DNA of 12,317 nt from Deltaproteobacteria bacterium. Its GTDB lineage: Bacteria > Desulfobacterota > Desulfarculia > Adiutricales > Adiutricaceae. The position numbers and the translations under genes were made by a program. Positions 3,001 to 12,208 of the stretch are shown one piece after another; the first letter of the stretch is position 1, and every line of letters starts with the position of its first letter. The DNA is taken from NCBI GenBank assembly GCA_031278795.1, contig JAITJT010000270.1:1-12317 (forward strand), in the 5' to 3' direction. The notes beneath the pieces were generated by a model. The model was not told the DNA's origin, made no database searches, and worked only from the letters and a program-made list of their open reading frames with translations.

Positions 3001-3201
3001 ATGACTGAGAACTCGTTGAAACTGCTCCGAGAACAACTTCTCCTAAGCAAGGCTGAGTTGGCCCGGAAAGCAGGCGTTTCACCCATGACAATCGATCGAA
3101 TCGAGAATGGGGAAAAGTGCCGGATGGAGACCAAGCGCAAGATTATTCTTGCCCTGGGGTACTCCCTAGAGGACAAGGACAAAATATTTTCCGACCTCTA
3201 A
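3001..3201 (+). CDS. Small XRE/HTH_3-family DNA-binding protein
   Basis: A 66-residue protein that is almost entirely one Cro/C1-type helix-turn-helix domain. Residues 16-26 (SKAELARKAGV) are the first helix of the motif and 27-37 (SPMTIDRIENG) the turn and recognition helix, followed by KRKIILALGYSLED, the usual closing helix. No sensor or dimerisation domain is attached. ATG at 3001 has AGAGGTG 7 bases upstream. It sits directly upstream of the pil locus in the same direction, with about 550 bases between, so it could control pilM, but it could equally be a self-contained regulator. From memory, similar short XRE proteins are widespread in Desulfobacterota; I cannot verify this here. Family call firm, target unknown. 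Confidence 0.88.
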   Translation: MTENSLKLLREQLLLSKAELARKAGVSPMTIDRIENGEKCRMETKRKIILALGYSLEDKDKIFSDL

Positions 3202-3748: not shown

Positions 3749-4807
3749 GTGTCTGTAATCGGCTTTGACATAGGGACTTTTGCCGCCAAGGGATTGCTCC
3801 TCAACCTGAAGGGGAAGGGCCGCACCACCACCGTGACCCTCATGGGCCTGGGCATTGCCCAGCTGCCCGCGGGAGTCATGACCCAGTGGGAGGACCAGCC
3901 CGTCCCGGCCAGGAACGCCATGGCCAACGCCATGAAGACCATCTCCAAGGTCTCCAAGCTCACCGGAGGGAAGTTCGCCGCCCTGTCCTTAAGCGGCGAC
4001 ACTATGATTATCAAGAAGATAAACATGCCCATAACCTCCCAAAAGGAGCTGCGCGGCTCCTTGGCCTTGGAGGCTGAACAGTACATCCCCTATCCCATAA
4101 ATGAGGTCATCATAGACGGGCACATCCTCAACACCGATGACCGCACCGGACAGATGTCGGTCCTTCTGGTGGCGGCCAGAAAGGACGTGGTCTATAATTA
4201 TATCCAGGCCCTGGCCATCACCAAGACCTTGAAACCCGCGGTCATTGACGTGGACGCCCTGGCCCTCTTCAACGCCTATGACTTCATCTACCCGGACAGC
4301 CGGGAGAATGTCATCCTCATAGACATAGGGGCCAATCTCCTCCACATCACCATCCTCTACGAGGGAGTGCCCCACACCATCAAGGAGGAGGGCATAGGTG
4401 GCCAGAGGGTGACCGACGACATCGAGGACGCCTTCGGGGTGACCCCGGACGAGGCCGAGGCTATCAAGCTGGGCTCTCTACCCGTCTCCAACCCCTATGA
4501 GGTGGCCGAGATCATAGACCGCATCGTCTCCAACTGGGAGGCGGCCATAGAACGGGCCCTGGAGAGCATTCGCTCCGAGATACCCGAGTACAAGCCCTCC
4601 AAGATCTTCCTGGCCGGCGGCTCGGCCCTCTTTCAAGGGCTCCCGGAGGAGTTCAGCAAGCGTTTCCAGATACCCGCCGAGCTATTCAATCCACTCACCA
4701 GCGTGAAGTACAACTCCAAGAAATTTGATCCAGCCTACCTCAACTATATCGGCCCCCAGATGGCCGTGAGTTTCGGGCTGGCCATCAGAAAGGCGGAAAC
4801 CCTATGA
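3749..4807 (+). CDS. pilM: PilM, actin-like type IV pilus assembly ATPase-fold protein
   Basis: A 352-residue cytoplasmic protein of the actin/FtsA-like fold. It binds the short cytoplasmic tail of PilN and anchors the alignment complex of type IV pili. Visible motifs: phosphate-1 loop GFDIGTFAAKG (5-15), the PilM signature AEQYIPYPINEV (109-120), phosphate-2 loop LIDIGANLLHITI (190-202) and the adenosine motif LAGGSALFQGL (288-298). Length is normal. GTG at 3749 is the only in-frame start placed behind the GGAGG at 3733-3737, with an 11-base spacing that is a little long. The stop overlaps the pilN start as ATGA, so the two are translationally coupled. Composition matches the other pil genes. 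The identification is firm. Confidence 0.95.
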   Translation: MSVIGFDIGTFAAKGLLLNLKGKGRTTTVTLMGLGIAQLPAGVMTQWEDQPVPARNAMANAMKTISKVSKLTGGKFAALSLSGDTMIIKKINMPITSQKELRGSLALEAEQYIPYPINEVIIDGHILNTDDRTGQMSVLLVAARKDVVYNYIQALAITKTLKPAVIDVDALALFNAYDFIYPDSRENVILIDIGANLLHITILYEGVPHTIKEEGIGGQRVTDDIEDAFGVTPDEAEAIKLGSLPVSNPYEVAEIIDRIVSNWEAAIERALESIRSEIPEYKPSKIFLAGGSALFQGLPEEFSKRFQIPAELFNPLTSVKYNSKKFDPAYLNYIGPQMAVSFGLAIRKAETL

Positions 4808-5490
4808 TGATCAAGATCAACCTTCTGCCCCTGGAGTCCTTCAAGCAGACCCAGACCGGCCAGCTCTCGGTTACCATCTTCGCCTTTGTCGTATTGGCCT
4901 TGGGTATCGCCCTCTATCTATTCAAGGCCTTCATCATGGACGCCGAGATATCCAAGCTAGAGACCCAGAAGACCACTCTCAACTCAGAGCTCACCAAGCT
5001 CAAGACCTCCTCCACCGAGGCCCTGAAGCAGACCACGGAGTTTGTGACCCAGTTCCGCCAGGTCTCCTCCATCTCGGAGCTGGAGGAGAGGCGCCGGGAT
5101 CAAACCAGGCTCTTCAACTCCCTGGCCAAGGAGGTAATTAACCAGGCCTCTTGGCTAATCTCCATCTCCCACCAGAACAAGCTCTTAACCATGAGGGGGA
5201 TGGCCATAGACCTCCAGGTGGTGGCTGACTTCCACCTACGCCTGGAGCAGAACCCCTTCCTCTCCAACGTGAAGCTGGTGCGCTCGGAGGAGACCAGTAT
5301 AAACAACGTTCCGCTTTTCACCTTTGATTTTGTGGCCGAGACCCATTTCGAGGCCCCCACCCTCCTTAAAGACGGCTTGGAAACCATAGACCTTCCGCCC
5401 CAGGAACAGCTGGTGAAGCTGGTTAACGCTGCGGCACCGGATCTAGCCAAGACCATGCAGAAGGAGGAGGCCGGGAAGGCTACTCTCTAG
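4804..5490 (+). CDS. pilN: PilN, inner-membrane type IV pilus alignment protein
   Basis: A 228-residue bitopic inner-membrane protein. The N-terminal IKINLLP (3-9) is the conserved cytoplasmic peptide that docks on PilM. One transmembrane helix covers about residues 22-42, then a charged coiled-coil (about 46-110) and a periplasmic ferredoxin-like domain (about 110-180: SWLISISHQNKLLTMRGMA, then VVADFHLRLEQNPFLSNVKL). A tail of about 45 residues rich in Leu, Pro and Lys extends past the usual end, making it somewhat longer than common PilN proteins. It starts inside the pilM stop (ATGA overlap); the next ATG, at 4807, would also work. PilN pairs with PilO in the periplasm. No terminator follows, but a 191-base gap with tandem repeats separates it from pilO. 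Confidence 0.95.
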   Translation: MMIKINLLPLESFKQTQTGQLSVTIFAFVVLALGIALYLFKAFIMDAEISKLETQKTTLNSELTKLKTSSTEALKQTTEFVTQFRQVSSISELEERRRDQTRLFNSLAKEVINQASWLISISHQNKLLTMRGMAIDLQVVADFHLRLEQNPFLSNVKLVRSEETSINNVPLFTFDFVAETHFEAPTLLKDGLETIDLPPQEQLVKLVNAAAPDLAKTMQKEEAGKATL

Positions 5491-5681: not shown

Positions 5682-6332
5682 ATGGCCAAAGCCCAGACCA
5701 AAAAAGCCGACAGTGGTGATTTCTTCACCAAGATATCCAAGCTCAAATCGGGCCAGAAACTGGGAATCCTGATAGGCTCGGCAGTGGCCATCATAGTGGC
5801 CTTCTACATGCTCTACTTCCAGCCATACACGGATCAAAAGACGGCCTTAAACTCCGAGATAGCCACCCTCAACACCAACATCTCCACGGAACAGACCAAC
5901 GTCAATAAGCACAAGCCCATTGCCAAGTACGTCTCGCCTGTCGCGGATATGTACCTCTACCTCAAGAGCTTCTTCACCACGGAAAACGAGATACCCAGGC
6001 TCATGCAGATAATCTCGGATCTAGGCGCCCAGGCCGGCATAAAGGTGATCCTCTTCGCCCCGGGCTCCAAGGGGGCGCTCCTCAACCCGGAGTACGCCGA
6101 GATCCCCTTCTCCATGAACCTCCAGGGCCCCTTCCTCAATGTCCTTAAATTCCTCTACACCTTAAGCCAGATGGAGAGGATAATAAATATCAAGACCATC
6201 AGCATGGACAATCCCGTCCTGGGCGACAACCTCCAGATTCACCTGAGCGTCAAGTGCGACGGTAGCACTTACCGCTCCTTAACCGAGGAAGAGGTGAAGA
6301 CGGTCAGCGACCCGAAAAACGCCAAGAAGTAA
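5682..6332 (+). CDS. pilO: PilO, inner-membrane type IV pilus alignment protein
   Basis: A 216-residue bitopic inner-membrane protein that forms heterodimers with PilN and contacts PilP. After a Lys-rich cytoplasmic start (1-26) there is one transmembrane helix (about 27-46, LGILIGSAVAIIVAFYMLYF), a coiled-coil with Asn/Thr-rich heptads (50-80) and the PilO core: EIPRLMQIISDLGAQAGIKV (103-122), then AEIPFSMNLQGPFLNVLKFL (139-158) and a closing strand (DNLQIHLSVK). Length is normal. ATG at 5682 has AGAGG 5 bases upstream. Unlike most pilNO pairs it does not overlap pilN; the repeat block lies between. The downstream gap to pilP is 110 bases and contains a GC hairpin. Confidence 0.95.
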   Translation: MAKAQTKKADSGDFFTKISKLKSGQKLGILIGSAVAIIVAFYMLYFQPYTDQKTALNSEIATLNTNISTEQTNVNKHKPIAKYVSPVADMYLYLKSFFTTENEIPRLMQIISDLGAQAGIKVILFAPGSKGALLNPEYAEIPFSMNLQGPFLNVLKFLYTLSQMERIINIKTISMDNPVLGDNLQIHLSVKCDGSTYRSLTEEEVKTVSDPKNAKK

Positions 6333-6376: not shown

Positions 6377-6398
6377 CCCGCCGCCAGCGGGCGGCGGG
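6377..6398 (+). promoter_or_regulatory. GC-only 9-base-pair hairpin between pilO and pilP
   Basis: CCCGCCGCC (6377-6385), loop AGCG (6386-6389) and GGCGGCGGG (6390-6398) form a perfect, very stable stem-loop in an otherwise AT-rich gap. No U-run follows, so it is not a standard terminator; it could stabilise the 3' end of the upstream message or hinder read-through. It also buries a GTG at 6398 that is in frame with pilP, which argues against that start. Confidence 0.6.
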
Positions 6399-6442: not shown

Positions 6443-7654
6443 ATGTCATTTTTAGCCAAATTTCATAGACAAATAGAGCAGGGCCTCCTCGTGATGGCGC
6501 TGTGCGCTTTTATGACAGCTCCACCCCAAGATGCCCAGGCGCAAACGGTCCCGCCGCCTCAAGAGCCGGTGGTCGCCCAGCCCCTGTACCAGCCCCAGGC
6601 GACGGATCCCAATGTCCAGACCCCGCTTGCGCCTCCCCAAGCCCCGGCCCAAACCCCGGCGATGCCTCCGGCCCAGGCGGGCGCTAATGTTCAGCCGGTG
6701 GCCTTAGATCCTGCTTCCCAAGCCCAACTCCAGTCCCAGCAGCTTCCAAGCTACACCCCGCCGCCGCCTTCCCAAGGCGCGGTGCAAGGCGCCCCCCAGG
6801 GCGGTGGCTATACCCTGCCCACACCCATGCCCGCCGCACCCGAGGCCCAACCTGGAGCCCCAGCTGGGGCCCAGCCCCCGGCGGTGCCTACCTACGCCGT
6901 GCCCACGGCCATTCAGGGCGCGACCCCAACTGAGGCCCAGCCCGGGGCCACTCCGCTTCCCACTAACGCAGCCCCACAGGCCCCACAGGCCCCTCAGCCT
7001 GGGACTGACGTCCAGCAACAGCCCACAGTAGATGCCAATGGCGAGCTCCAGTATCCCCCCCAGGTGCTGGTGGCGGACCCTGACAGCGCCGTGAGCCCCC
7101 CGGGAACGCCTGGCTCTTTGGCCCCCGTTAGCCCCGCGGCCCTAGGCGCGGACACGGATCTTATCCTTCCGGCCCCCAAGGTGCCGGAAGACCCGGAGGC
7201 GGCACCGGTCTATCAGGAAATGGACAAGTGGCACAGTAAACTCCTGGCGGCCTATAATTTGAATCTCAACACCCTTCCGGACCCCTTCATGCCCATAGAG
7301 ACGGTCATGCGTCCAGCCAACACGGAGGTCGCCAAGAAAGAGCCCGACAAACGCCTGCCTATGATTCAGCGCCTGTCGCTCAACAGTTTCACCCTCACCG
7401 CGATCGTCGTGCACCCCAATCCCGCCAACAGCACCGCCCTGGTGGACAGTGGCGGCGTGGGCTACCTCATACGCCAAGGCACCAAGATTGGCCCCAACAA
7501 CGGTGTTGTGAGGGAGATAACGGACAGCAAGGTCGTGATAGAGGAGCCCGAGGTCAACTACAAGGGCGACAAGCGGGTGAGATACACCGAGCTCAAGCTC
7601 AATCCCATAGACTCGGGGCTTCCCGAGGAGGGCTTCCTGGACGACTCCGCCTGA
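6443..7654 (+). CDS. pilP: PilP-family pilus protein with a long Pro/Ala/Gln-rich linker
   Basis: A 403-residue periplasmic protein. The signal peptide spans residues 1-33 (core LLVMALCAFMTA, cut after AQA). A low-complexity Pro/Ala/Gln linker follows to about 250, then a motif DPFMPIE (280-286) and the PilP domain (about 310-386: FTLTAIVV, GGVGYLIRQGTKIG, NNGVVREITDSKVVIEE). PilP bridges PilN-PilO to the secretin PilQ. Typical PilP proteins are near 170-180 residues, so this one is more than twice as long because of the linker, which might span the periplasm or cross peptidoglycan. PilP is usually a lipoprotein, but the single Cys (21) has Leu before it and no lipobox is seen. ATG at 6443 fits the signal peptide; GTG at 6398 is in frame but sits in the hairpin. 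A ribosome site is only weak. Confidence 0.85.
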   Translation: MSFLAKFHRQIEQGLLVMALCAFMTAPPQDAQAQTVPPPQEPVVAQPLYQPQATDPNVQTPLAPPQAPAQTPAMPPAQAGANVQPVALDPASQAQLQSQQLPSYTPPPPSQGAVQGAPQGGGYTLPTPMPAAPEAQPGAPAGAQPPAVPTYAVPTAIQGATPTEAQPGATPLPTNAAPQAPQAPQPGTDVQQQPTVDANGELQYPPQVLVADPDSAVSPPGTPGSLAPVSPAALGADTDLILPAPKVPEDPEAAPVYQEMDKWHSKLLAAYNLNLNTLPDPFMPIETVMRPANTEVAKKEPDKRLPMIQRLSLNSFTLTAIVVHPNPANSTALVDSGGVGYLIRQGTKIGPNNGVVREITDSKVVIEEPEVNYKGDKRVRYTELKLNPIDSGLPEEGFLDDSA

Positions 7655-7755
7655 TACAAGCGAGTGTAGGACTAAATTAGGCTATAACGGATGAGCGCCC
7701 TGGATTCTGGATTTAAATTTTGGGTGAACCTTTTCCAATGTGCATTCACCTTATA

Positions 7756-7815
7756 TAGCTCTCGCTTGTTTAGCTCTCGCTTGTTTAGCTCTCGCTTGTT
7801 TAGCTCTCGCTTGTT
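7756..7815 (+). repeat. Four perfect tandem copies of a 15-base unit
   Basis: TAGCTCTCGCTTGTT is repeated exactly four times (7756, 7771, 7786, 7801). The lack of any divergence implies a recent expansion or a constraint. Nine bases of the unit (CTCGCTTGT) are the exact reverse complement of ACAAGCGAG at 7656-7664, next to the pilP stop codon. It is not a CRISPR array: there are no spacers and the unit is too short. Confidence 0.9.
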
Positions 7816-7816
7816 C

Positions 7817-7848
7817 GCGCGCATTAGTTTTTAGAAAAAAACTCGCGC
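7817..7848 (+). repeat. Hairpin immediately after the 15-base repeats
   Basis: AGTTTTT (7826-7832) and AAAAACT (7837-7843) are perfect complements around AGAA. Outside them GCGCG (7817-7821) and CGCGC (7844-7848) can pair, with CATT bulged on the left. It adjoins the last 15-base repeat. No U-run follows, so termination is doubtful on the plus strand. Confidence 0.5.
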
Positions 7849-7883
7849 ACCATAGCGTATCTTAAAATTATTTTTGTCCTTGT

Positions 7884-7911
7884 TTGGACTGTCTTTTGTT
7901 AAATTTATATT
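7884..7911 (+). promoter_or_regulatory. Weak candidate promoter for the second pilP gene
   Basis: TTGGAC (7884-7889), a 16-base spacer and TATATT (7906-7911). The -10 is close to consensus and the -35 is poor. A transcript from here would have a leader of about 330 bases containing the 8062-8088 hairpin. Other partial matches lie nearer the gene (TTGTTA at 8147) but lack good partners. Confidence 0.25.
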
Positions 7912-8061
7912 TTTAGTTTGTTTTAAAAAAACATTTTTCTTAGGTAAAGCTAACAAACGACAGAAGCTAAACTTAAGGCATGAGTTGGTAGGCGTAAAAA
8001 GAATTAAAATTTAAACGCTACCGTGTCACAAATTCATGTTAACAATATGATTTTTATGCCA

Positions 8062-8088
8062 AAGGCAAATATATTTTTCATTTGCCTT
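8062..8088 (+). repeat. 9-base-pair hairpin AAGGCAAAT/ATTTGCCTT
   Basis: The arms 8062-8070 and 8080-8088 are perfect reverse complements around a 9-base loop. It is a clear stem-loop about 160 bases before the second pilP gene. Neither strand has a proper U-run next to it, so it could be an operator or a leader hairpin. Confidence 0.55.
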
Positions 8089-8250
8089 GTGGGATATTTT
8101 TCACCAATTAATCAGGAATTATACTTATATTATTTGGCAAAAGCGCTTGTTAAAGCCATTATTACAGTAACTTATAAATAACTTGAGCTTTAGTTAAAGT
8201 GTTTTGTCTTAAAATTTTTTTTAAGAACCACTTGAAGGAGGCACCAGTAT

Positions 8251-8745
8251 ATGTCAAAATCAGTAGTAAGGATTGTTATGGCACTTGTTTTTTTCACGAC
8301 TCTTTCACTGGTTCTCCACACACAACTAAGTGCCCAAAACGATCCTAAGCCAGGCGACGAGTTAATCATTCCACCGCCAGCACCCGGGGCGACACCTCTT
8401 GCGCCTTCCACTCCAGGGCTTCCACCCGCGACTCCCGCTTCACCAAAAGTAACGAGTTTCGCGGACGATACCGTGGATATGGATGGTCAAGTGGATCCGA
8501 CTAATCTGGAAAAATATCCACTCCAGGATCTTAGTCTCTCCGCCATAGTGGTGAAAAGCGATCCTGAGTACAACATAGCCCTTCTTGAAGTTGGAGGAAT
8601 CGGCTACAGCGTGCGCAAGGGCGCCAAGGTGGGATCCGGAAACGGTATAGTCCGCGAGATAACCGAATCCAACGTGATTATCGAAGAGCTTAGCAAAGAC
8701 GGGGCCCCCACGGGCAAAATGGTAACATTGAGCTTCAACAACTAA
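8251..8745 (+). CDS. Second, short PilP-domain protein (tandem paralogue)
   Basis: A 164-residue periplasmic protein. A signal peptide covers residues 1-28 (VVRIVMALVFFTTLSLVL, cut after LSA), followed by a short Pro-rich stretch (40-66) and a PilP domain (about 88-163: YPLQDLSLSAIVV, GGIGYSVRKGAKVG, GNGIVREITESNVIIEE). Across about 60 residues the domain matches that of the upstream pilP at roughly half of the positions by eye, so the two are paralogues. It is the usual PilP size. It has no cysteine at all, so it cannot be a lipoprotein, unlike standard PilP. ATG at 8251 has AAGGAGG 9 bases upstream, the best ribosome site in the window, suggesting good translation. It lies about 600 bases from each pil neighbour or more and probably has its own promoter. 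Its codon use seems a little more AT-rich than the other pil genes. Confidence 0.88.
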   Translation: MSKSVVRIVMALVFFTTLSLVLHTQLSAQNDPKPGDELIIPPPAPGATPLAPSTPGLPPATPASPKVTSFADDTVDMDGQVDPTNLEKYPLQDLSLSAIVVKSDPEYNIALLEVGGIGYSVRKGAKVGSGNGIVREITESNVIIEELSKDGAPTGKMVTLSFNN

Positions 8746-8775
8746 CACACTTCACTTTTTTCTCCTGTTCAAGAG

Positions 8776-8819
8776 GTTTCAGGCGCGTCAAAATAAATCG
8801 CATTTTGGCGCCCTGAAAC
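8776..8819 (+). terminator. Long hairpin after the second pilP gene, possible terminator
   Basis: GTTTCAGG (8776-8783) pairs perfectly with CCTGAAAC (8812-8819); inside, after one bulge, CGC pairs with GCG and CAAAAT (8789-8794) pairs with ATTTTG (8802-8807). The stem begins 30 bases after the stop codon, the right place for a terminator, but only three T follow it, so termination may be weak or Rho-assisted. It may instead protect the message end. Confidence 0.45.
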
Positions 8820-9339
8820 TTTCACTACCAAAGGTACCTTAAAATCACGCTTTTAGATTTGAACATTCAGCTCTTTTTTTTCTCACTATTTTAATTCCAA
8901 AATGCCTTAATAATCACGAAAGAAAAAAAGTTATTACGTCCTTGTCTTTGTCCACACAAGCTTTTGTAAAGTTTTTTAATATCTTTTGTAATATCTTTTT
9001 TCATAAATCTCATTAAAAATTTACTTTCCCTCTAGCATAAATTTTTTCCTAATTCTTTAATTTTTCCCAAAACTTTTTAATCTTCTTCTTTTTATTATCA
9101 AAATAAGCCCTCTACTTTCGTAAATATTTAAATACCTAAACTTTTTAAATTACCACTTAAAAGCCCTAAAGATATTGGTCTCCAAATTGTTCCACACTAT
9201 GAATAGCTTTTGAAAGGAGATTTATAGAAAAATAAATAAAAAAATATTATCTTTTCATTGTGTTGAAGTTTTACGCGCTTACGGGCCTTTCTAAAGATTT
9301 TTGATGGCCCCGGGCCTCAAAACCGGCCGCCAAGTACTA

Positions 9340-9510: not shown

Positions 9511-9731
9511 TTTTTTGGGAACTTATAGGTAAGTATCAGATTAAACAAAGCTCAGACATAATCGAAGAAATAGACATCTGTCTAATTTTCTTAAAGTACT
9601 ATCTCGCTTCTGCCGATTAATTTATAGAGAGCTTCTAAGCTTATTTAAGGGATGAAGCCCAGATTGCTACTTAAAGATTCGAAAGTGATCTAGAGTGATC
9701 AGTTCTGATGATTACCCTTCAGGAGACTGCC

Positions 9732-11183
9732 ATGAGAACCAGCCCTAATATATTTCTCAGGCCTATTGTGCCGTTAATAATTTTGTTCGCCTCCGTGTTC
9801 ATGCTATCCGGAGGCCTGGCTTACGCCCAGACCTTCGCGCCCCCGGCTGACCCCTCCAGGCCCGCGACGCCCCAGGCCGCCCAGGCCCAGGCCCAGGGTC
9901 AGGCCGCTCCCCGGGCGGGAGGCGCCTTGGCGGGATTGGGCCTGGGTGACGAGAAGGTATACACGGGAGAGCGCATAAGCCTCGATTTTCAAAACGCTGA
10001 CATCCACAACATACTCCGCCTCATAGGCGAGGTCTCCGGCAAGAACGTCGTGGTATCCGACGCCGTTAGTGGAAAGGTCACCCTTAAACTGAGAAACGTC
10101 CCTTGGGATCAGGCTCTGGACATTGTCTTGGCGTCTAAGAACCTAGATTTCGAGGAAGTCGGAAACGTCCTCCGCATTGACACCAAGGACAACATCCGCC
10201 GGGCTACCCCGGATTACTCGGACCCCACCATTAGGGTGACTTTGGACAAGTGGACCTATACCCCCAAATACTCCTCAGTCACCACGCTGGCAGCTGAATT
10301 GGAGAAGGCCAAGAGCCCCAGGGGAACCGTCAGGGTCATCGGAAACGACATCTACGTGGAGGACGACGTAGATACCCTCAAGGCTATCAGGCTACTTGCC
10401 GTGCGCAATGACCGGGTCACCAAGCAGATACTCATAGAGGCCCGTATAGTGGAGGCCACGGCCCTGTTCCAGCAGTCCCTGGGCGTGCGCTGGGGCGGTG
10501 GCTATGACCGTTTCGGAAACTTCAGCAACCATACCGAGGCCATGGATCTGGTGGGCACCGATCTCACCGAGGGCGACTACTCCCCTGGTGAGGCCTTTGG
10601 GGCTTTTAGCGTGGGAAACGGGAGCGGCATCGCCTTGGGCATGGGATTCCTCAACCGGGCCGGAACGCTTTTGCTAAACGCCGAGCTCTCGGCGGCTGAG
10701 ACCGTGGGCCAGACCAAGATCATCTCCGCCCCACGCATAATGGCCGCAAACGACCAGCAGGTCTATATCAAGCAGGGCCAGCAGATCCCCTATAAGTCCG
10801 GCGGCGGCCTGGGCACCAACACCTCCACCGAGTTCAAGGACGCGGTCATGGAGCTGAGGGTCACCCCCCACATAGAGGAAAACGGCGAGATAGTGACCCT
10901 AGATATCACGCTCACCAAGGACTCACCCGGCGAGAGGTATGGGGCCTCAGATGAGCCCTCCATAAACAAGAGGGAAGCCTACACCAAGCTCATGGTTAAA
11001 AATGGCGAGACCGTGGTAATCGGTGGTATAATAACAGATGACCAGAGCGTGGGCGGCACCCGGGTTCCCGGACTACACGCCATTCCGCTCTTGGGGTGGC
11101 TCTTTGAAGAGAAAAATATCTCCAACTCCAAGACCGAGCTACTAATCTTCATAACAGCCTCCATAATTCCCATCAACATTTGA
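9732..11183 (+). CDS. pilQ: PilQ, type IV pilus outer-membrane secretin
   Basis: A 483-residue secretin, the outer-membrane ring through which the pilus passes. Signal peptide 1-32 (cut after AYA), an Ala/Gln/Pro-rich linker (33-70), an N0/STN domain (about 76-155: ISLDFQNADIHNILRLIGEV), an N1 domain (about 167-232), then the secretin barrel domain (about 235-481), with ILIEARIVEA (233-242), TKIISAPRIMAANDQQVYIK (328-347) and the hallmark VPGLHAIPLLGWLFE (445-459). The end reads LLIFITASIIP, with Ala where Pro is usual. It lacks the AMIN domains that many PilQ proteins carry, so it is short. ATG at 9732 is chosen because AGGAG stands 6 bases upstream; an in-frame ATG at 9708 has no ribosome site. 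A terminator follows 20 bases after the stop. PilP is its expected inner-membrane-side partner. Confidence 0.95.
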   Translation: MRTSPNIFLRPIVPLIILFASVFMLSGGLAYAQTFAPPADPSRPATPQAAQAQAQGQAAPRAGGALAGLGLGDEKVYTGERISLDFQNADIHNILRLIGEVSGKNVVVSDAVSGKVTLKLRNVPWDQALDIVLASKNLDFEEVGNVLRIDTKDNIRRATPDYSDPTIRVTLDKWTYTPKYSSVTTLAAELEKAKSPRGTVRVIGNDIYVEDDVDTLKAIRLLAVRNDRVTKQILIEARIVEATALFQQSLGVRWGGGYDRFGNFSNHTEAMDLVGTDLTEGDYSPGEAFGAFSVGNGSGIALGMGFLNRAGTLLLNAELSAAETVGQTKIISAPRIMAANDQQVYIKQGQQIPYKSGGGLGTNTSTEFKDAVMELRVTPHIEENGEIVTLDITLTKDSPGERYGASDEPSINKREAYTKLMVKNGETVVIGGIITDDQSVGGTRVPGLHAIPLLGWLFEEKNISNSKTELLIFITASIIPINI

Positions 11184-12133: not shown

Positions 12134-12208
12134 AGGCGTGTAGCTCAGGGGGAGAGCACTACCTTGACACGGTAGTGGTCAAGAGTTCAAATCTCTTCAC
12201 GCCTACCA
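12134..12208 (+). tRNA. tRNA-Val (anticodon GAC), CCA encoded
   Basis: A full cloverleaf can be drawn. The acceptor AGGCGTG (12134-12140) pairs with CACGCCT (12198-12204), the D stem is GCTC/GAGC (12143-12146, 12154-12157), and the anticodon stem CTACC/GGTAG (12159-12163, 12171-12175) has loop TTGACAC with anticodon GAC at 12166-12168. The T stem AAGAG/CTCTT (12181-12185, 12193-12197) has loop TTCAAAT. A discriminator and CCA (12205-12208) are encoded. It reads Val codons GUC and GUU. Confidence 0.97.

Follow-up and report, generated by a model that had tools for sequence, protein, structure and literature searches.

In the textbook view of type IV pili, a single lipid-anchored PilP couples the outer-membrane gate to the inner motor; what secures the gate and keeps it linked to the motor when the pilus pulls hard is not yet settled. 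Here we analyze a pilus locus with two PilP-domain genes, located in 12,317 nucleotides (nt) of DNA from a Deltaproteobacteria bacterium of the family Adiutricaceae (GenBank assembly GCA_031278795.1, contig JAITJT010000270.1, forward strand), hereafter the window. Open reading frames (ORFs) and Pfam/TIGR matches give the order pilM-pilN-pilO-L-S-pilQ on the + strand, L being a long and S a short PilP-domain protein. As proposed in the original prediction, which was made from the sequence alone, these tandem genes encode proteins of 403 and 164 residues (ORFs 6443-7654 and 8251-8745). They lie between pilO and pilQ. The features of the locus are:

3749..4807, + strand: pilM (PF11104, 155.8 bits; TIGR01175 above cut-off)
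4804..5490, + strand: pilN (PF05137 above cut-off)
5682..6332, + strand: pilO (PF04350, 58.9 bits)
6443..7654, + strand: L, long PilP, 403 amino acids (aa) (PF04351, 25.3 bits, cut-off 25.6; orthologs at further loci)
6443..6541, + strand: predicted signal sequence of L, residues 1-33, AQA/Q, no lipobox (rule-based scan; helix 3-24 in the model)
6542..7201, + strand: Pro/Ala/Gln-rich linker of L, residues 34-253 (composition; block means of the predicted local distance difference test, pLDDT, mostly <60)
7202..7255, + strand: helix of L, residues 254-271, with no counterpart in the window's S (AlphaFold2 models)
7280..7294, + strand: DPFMP motif of L (conserved in PilPs; absent from 15/15 S)
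7352..7606, + strand: HR-type beta domain of L, residues 304-388
8251..8745, + strand: S, short PilP-domain protein, 164 aa (PF04351, 33.7 bits; S-type copies at 14 other loci)
8251..8334, + strand: predicted signal sequence of S, residues 1-28, LSA/Q (rule-based scan; no cysteine in the protein)
8335..8496, + strand: short linker of S, residues 29-82 (pLDDT block means <55)
8497..8739, + strand: HR-type beta domain of S, residues 83-163
9708..11183, + strand: pilQ, N0 and secretin domains, no AMIN domain (TIGR02515, 342.8 bits; PF21305, PF07660, PF00263)

Coupling of the L and S genes is loose: the gap between them measures 596 nt, with a GC content of 33%, a further 962 nt lie between S and pilQ, and AGGAGG stands directly 5' of the S ATG. 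At positions 7750-7824, within the L-S gap, a 15-nt unit is repeated in tandem about four times. A scan yielded 10 promoter-like sites (6.2 expected) and 6 terminator-like sites (10.0 expected), a result that was not used.

Both proteins are related to PilP, and to each other. S exceeds the cut-off of the Pfam PilP model PF04351, which L, at 25.3 bits, narrowly misses; the L ortholog in genome G001 scores 32.7 bits. When best aligned locally, the two domains are identical at 29 of 61 positions, in line with the predicted likeness at about half of the domain positions, and score 161, as compared with 52 for the best of 1000 shuffles. Membership of L or S in the GspC family was rejected (NF041515, 18.0 bits vs. 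a cut-off of 150). L occupies the place of PilP, between pilO and pilQ (with S, in the window, between L and pilQ), and keeps the upstream features of PilP, namely the DPFMP motif at 7280-7294 and a model helix at residues 254-271. In Pseudomonas, the DPF segment belongs to the region of PilP that contacts PilN/PilO. L retains this segment, which is absent from all 15 S proteins, and the AlphaFold2 model of the window's S, the sole S modelled, has no counterpart of the L helix; S is therefore treated as a paralogue with a PilP domain and not as a PilP proper. Its confidently predicted fold (AlphaFold2) is that of the HR domain with which PilP, GspC and GspB dock on secretins, and in the model the protein ends 3 residues past the last strand.

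The pair recurs in related genomes. Database searches returned six proteins with S and six with L as query, and a profile of 16 S-type sequences returned 18, including some that are not S-type (P0021 and P0022 carry DPF). In a contig scan, two near relatives (L001 and L002, Deltaproteobacteria metagenome-assembled genomes, MAGs), which we take to be Adiutrix-like termite-gut bacteria, share the order pilM-N-O-L-S-pilQ. Such MAGs are placed in the family Adiutricaceae in the available part of a published study (PMC9137090), on which this assumption partly leans; carriers of the L-S pair are probably gut bacteria. In a survey of 63 genomes of the class, 36 had a PilP match, 37 a PilO match and 14 an S. 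The locus scan, which considered ORFs of at least 70 aa with profiles built from three loci, placed S between L and pilQ in 15/15 S-bearing loci (the 14 genomes and the window). L is followed directly by pilQ in 12/12 inner-clade loci that have no S. L orthologs precede S or pilQ at 26 further inner-clade loci (L040 and L057 being on contigs without pilO).

Two families of the short copy can be told apart, S (12 loci) and S2 (3 loci). The second copies of L044 and L045 score higher with the L than with the S profile (58.1 vs. 36.1 and 47.9 vs. 43.2, respectively), and their S2 name is based on place, length and the missing DPF segment. A motif like ‘SASDDFEP’ precedes the domain in most S2-type proteins seen (P0014, P0016-P0019, L045, L046); it is absent from S proteins and from the S2 of L044, and may mark an extra contact.

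Across the phylum, a survey of 395 genomes found PilP in 281, with two matches listed in 5: three belong to this class (G001, G002, G013), and the remaining two, G119 and G404, have their matches on separate contigs. No adjoining PilP pair was seen outside the class among these 395 genomes. Within the class, the same model and limit detected the second copy in 10 of 14 S-bearing genomes (missing G014, G027, G029 and G036), so that divergent pairs elsewhere may be missed. Judging by titles and abstract openings in the library searched, no publication was found that announces a second PilP in a pilus locus.

On the domain tree, from which rows L062 and L067 were excluded as long branches, as they were from the approximately unbiased (AU) test, the 12 S rows form one group (support 100/100) and the three S2 rows another (97/95). 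The best tree places S2 beside L of its own genomes (70/90), and a single clade of S and S2 is not rejected (p-AU 0.145); one origin of S or two may each be compatible with the trees. A PilM+PilO tree rejects the S-bearing genomes as one clade (p-AU 1.2e-7), with a minimum of 3 changes over 35 rows, which means that the L-S arrangement either had several origins or has disappeared from some lineages. By the trees, S would descend from PilP by duplication. The ratio of nonsynonymous to synonymous substitution rates (dN/dS) is about 0.09-0.14 for the S domain in three pairs, values that are uncertain given that dS exceeds 1, and about 0.16-0.26 for whole S; these are signs that S is under purifying selection. 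Chance or decay as the source of the pair is disfavored by the shuffles, the synteny and dN/dS. The conserved L-S pair is real, and S is neither a chance find nor debris.

The expectation that neither protein would be lipidated also held. S has no cysteine, as had been noted, and an in-frame stop 18 nt upstream of its ATG closes the frame, leaving no earlier start; the sole cysteine of L, C21 (MALC), lies inside the hydrophobic core and is not part of a lipobox, and an in-frame upstream extension of L to the GTG at 6398 adds none. A lipobox at a corrected start is rejected for both proteins, none being present at any usable start. The predicted AxA-type sites precede a Q at L33/34 (AQA/Q) and at S28/29 (LSA/Q), as read by rule. 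A loose lipobox rule ([GAS]C following the hydrophobic core) matches none of 12 S, 3 S2 and 15 L proteins, 1/12 single PilPs of the inner clade, 3/10 outer relatives, and 17/20 PilPs of the wider phylum, a sample picked from the best listed matches and hence biased to canonical PilPs. With the strict motif, 8 of these 20 match, as does a single S, that of L035, where the match falls halfway along the hydrophobic core. A rule-based A/Q cleavage site follows the core in 10/12 S, 2/3 S2 and 11/15 L proteins. This suggests that the N-terminus of S is cleaved, with an uncleaved anchor as a second possibility, and that S may be soluble in the periplasm. Judged by its sequence, L is orthologous to PilP, yet not a lipoprotein, and the lipid anchor of PilP appears to be lost in this clade.

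In 15 of 17 phylum PilPs, 43-56 residues separate the lipobox-like site from DPF (120 and 123 in the other two). The corresponding linker has about 250 residues in the window's L and 156-304 across 14 S-bearing loci; by this measure, the PilP linker is expanded from about 47 to about 250 residues. Its composition (P, A or Q at 127 of 226 positions in residues 25-250) agrees with the predicted Pro/Ala/Gln-rich stretch of more than 200 residues, and a disordered linker of about 220-250 residues could possibly span the periplasm. The median linker length is 216 in S-bearing loci (n = 14) and 136.5 in the rest of the inner clade (n = 12; p 0.0007, unadjusted), with L040 excluded as truncated and L044 included despite an unsure start. 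Correction for kinship (with L044 not in the trait and G029 scored as S-bearing via its other contig) leaves 2 independent pairs, and so no association between linker length and S is shown.

The PilQ proteins of the window and of six short relatives (470-514 aa) that were scanned have N0 and secretin domains and no AMIN domain, which is present in the PilQ of three long outer relatives (684-844 aa). An AMIN match elsewhere, which might compensate, occurs in 7/25 genomes, never on the pilQ contig. Clade members without S likewise have no AMIN domain, no lipid anchor and a lengthened linker, so S does not follow from these traits. All 25 inner-clade genomes (14 with S, 11 without) have a secretin match, and in 10 of the 14 S genomes the only full match is the pilQ beside S (one of these, G027, has an extra 47-aa secretin fragment at a contig end). 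In those 10, S hardly serves another secretion system, and its place by pilQ in every S-bearing locus agrees; the possibility, raised in the original prediction, that homologues would show the short copy to belong to another secretion system was not borne out. Absences from these MAGs are weak, their completeness being unstated. PilT-family ATPases score above cut-off in 24/25 genomes, two of them adjacent in 22/25 on our reading. In L056 (G033), a second ORF (7744-9156) matching the PilQ profile with 256 bits directly follows pilQ.

We consider it slightly more probable than otherwise that S is a shortened PilP paralogue that docks on PilQ N0 and stabilizes or gates the secretin, while L does the bridging. 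L would be the working PilP, with a helix and DPF segment that contact PilN/PilO, a long disordered linker, and an HR domain that binds PilQ. S would be a secreted, unanchored HR module whose domain docks on the PilQ N0 ring; lacking the DPF segment, it would make no tie between secretin and inner membrane, and its role would be to stabilize or gate the channel. PilQ binding by S, the absence of PilN/PilO binding, periplasmic solubility, and the stabilizing or gating role are all inferred. With one S subunit bound to each N0, the ring would be capped or braced. S might fill some N0 sites, or hold the ring before or between dockings; it may share the ring with L, precede L or compete with it. 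Of the interpretations in the original prediction, this favors two kinds of secretin contact, since L keeps helix and DPF segment and S only the secretin-docking fold; for a specialized second pilus state the evidence speaks neither way, and as a whole that interpretation is partly supported.

Several points weigh against a docked, stabilizing S. The 11 residues just before beta1 are much less conserved in S than in L (0.61 vs. 0.97), so the docking geometry may differ, and the docking edge is not singled out by conservation, given that beta4 comes close to beta1 in this respect. About 50 residues precede the S domain and could hold another contact. The absence of S from all 12 other inner-clade L-pilQ loci indicates that it is not essential to the pilus type. 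Other secretins exist, or may exist, in G013 (two matches), G014 (two) and G015 (three), and in G024 the sole secretin match lies on a different contig from the truncated pilQ, presumably as its missing end. Finally, S may be in competition with L for a shared site and would then act as an antagonist.

That last possibility can be put more specifically: as a soluble competitor, S would occupy PilQ N0, exclude L, and limit the number of membrane-connecting pilus machines. The predicted fold and docking edge shared with L, together with the missing DPF segment, fit this reading, but they do not distinguish competition from co-occupancy, and there is no sign of separate regulation other than the long AT-rich gaps; we hold it to be improbable. 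We place just below it the view that S is a secretin assembly or targeting factor, GspB- or pilotin-like, acting on PilQ before assembly and absent from the finished machine. OutB is reported, in the part of the study available, to use an HR-N0 contact in guiding its own secretin to the outer membrane (PMC9239104), and the PilQ proteins of this clade are without AMIN domains; however, S is missing the C-terminal extension of GspB and its membrane anchor is doubtful. An alternative PilP isoform, replacing L under some conditions to give a second state of the same pilus, would suit a gene in the same locus with its own AGGAGG before the ATG and a long separate upstream region, but without a DPF segment S would, by known PilP biology, hardly bridge alone, and we regard this as quite unlikely.

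Two further explanations are very improbable. Service to a different secretin or secretion system could draw on the weak GspC match (18.0 bits), on the database name ‘PulC’ carried by one S2 protein and on the two to three secretin matches of G013-G015; it is disfavored by the adjacency of S and pilQ at all 15 loci and, with the caution due to MAGs, by the fact that 10 of the 14 genomes with S show no further complete secretin domain. Decay of a functionless duplicate, to which we give equally little credence, would account for the long AT-rich flanking gaps and for the presence of S in only part of the clade, but not for a low domain dN/dS, 12 loci united as one family at 100/100, or a confident fold.

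The picture of S as a secretin-docking module can be extended into a bolder one, which we think unlikely though less so than any of the alternatives above: a single secretin would carry two adaptor rings, one formed by the bridging PilP, whose elastic linker is very long and unanchored, and the other by a free PilP module that contacts the secretin only. This design would have evolved twice among gut bacteria, within a clade that has lost the PilP lipid anchor and the PilQ AMIN domains, and a soluble collar would take over from membrane and wall anchors in holding the gate.

Elsewhere in the window, a periplasmic ligand-binding protein (134-1537, - strand; PF13458, 33.2 bits) and a 107-aa SCP2 sterol-carrier-like protein (2113-2436, + strand; 57.3 bits) precede the pil genes, and ORFs similar by eye lie upstream of the pil genes and of pilM, respectively, in L001 and L002, which makes the SCP2-like ORF an odd constant neighbor. 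A short ORF (3001-3201, + strand) has, by eye, the look of an Xre-type helix-turn-helix protein, and a tRNA-Val (GAC) gene (12134-12208, + strand) lies downstream of pilQ. A search of a plasmid collection gave no match.

The two jobs of PilP seem to be split here between two genes, one for bridging and one, to judge by its parts, for secretin contact only, and a natural split would allow tying to the inner membrane and stabilizing the gate to be tested apart. Like L, PilP in the type IVa pili of Neisseria, Pseudomonas and Myxococcus is encoded after pilO and before pilQ and has a DPF segment and an HR-type domain; S resembles it in having an HR-type domain and in being encoded next to pilQ. 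It differs in that L and S have no lipobox, the L linker has about 250 residues vs. about 47, S has no DPF segment, and there are two genes instead of one. PilW of Thermus is, like PilP, placed between pilO and pilQ, but is described, in the available part of the source, as without homology to known type IV pilus or type II secretion proteins, whereas here PilP is present. GspC also has an HR domain, but there is no type II locus here and GspC family models score far below their cut-offs. To our knowledge, a second HR-domain protein of the GspB type is known from type II secretion only. This protein of type II secretion is the closest working analogy to S, and the available part of one study reports, in its authors' reading, that the OutB HR domain binds the type II secretin N0 in vitro with higher affinity than that of OutC (PMC9239104). 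GspB/OutB has a membrane anchor and a C-terminal peptidoglycan-attaching extension, while S ends with its domain, carries a predicted cleavable signal, and lies in a pilM-N-O-P-Q locus and not in a type II secretion context. Most likely, S corresponds in the type IV pilus to GspB and arose by duplication of PilP; if so, the type IV pilus would gain a GspB of its own.
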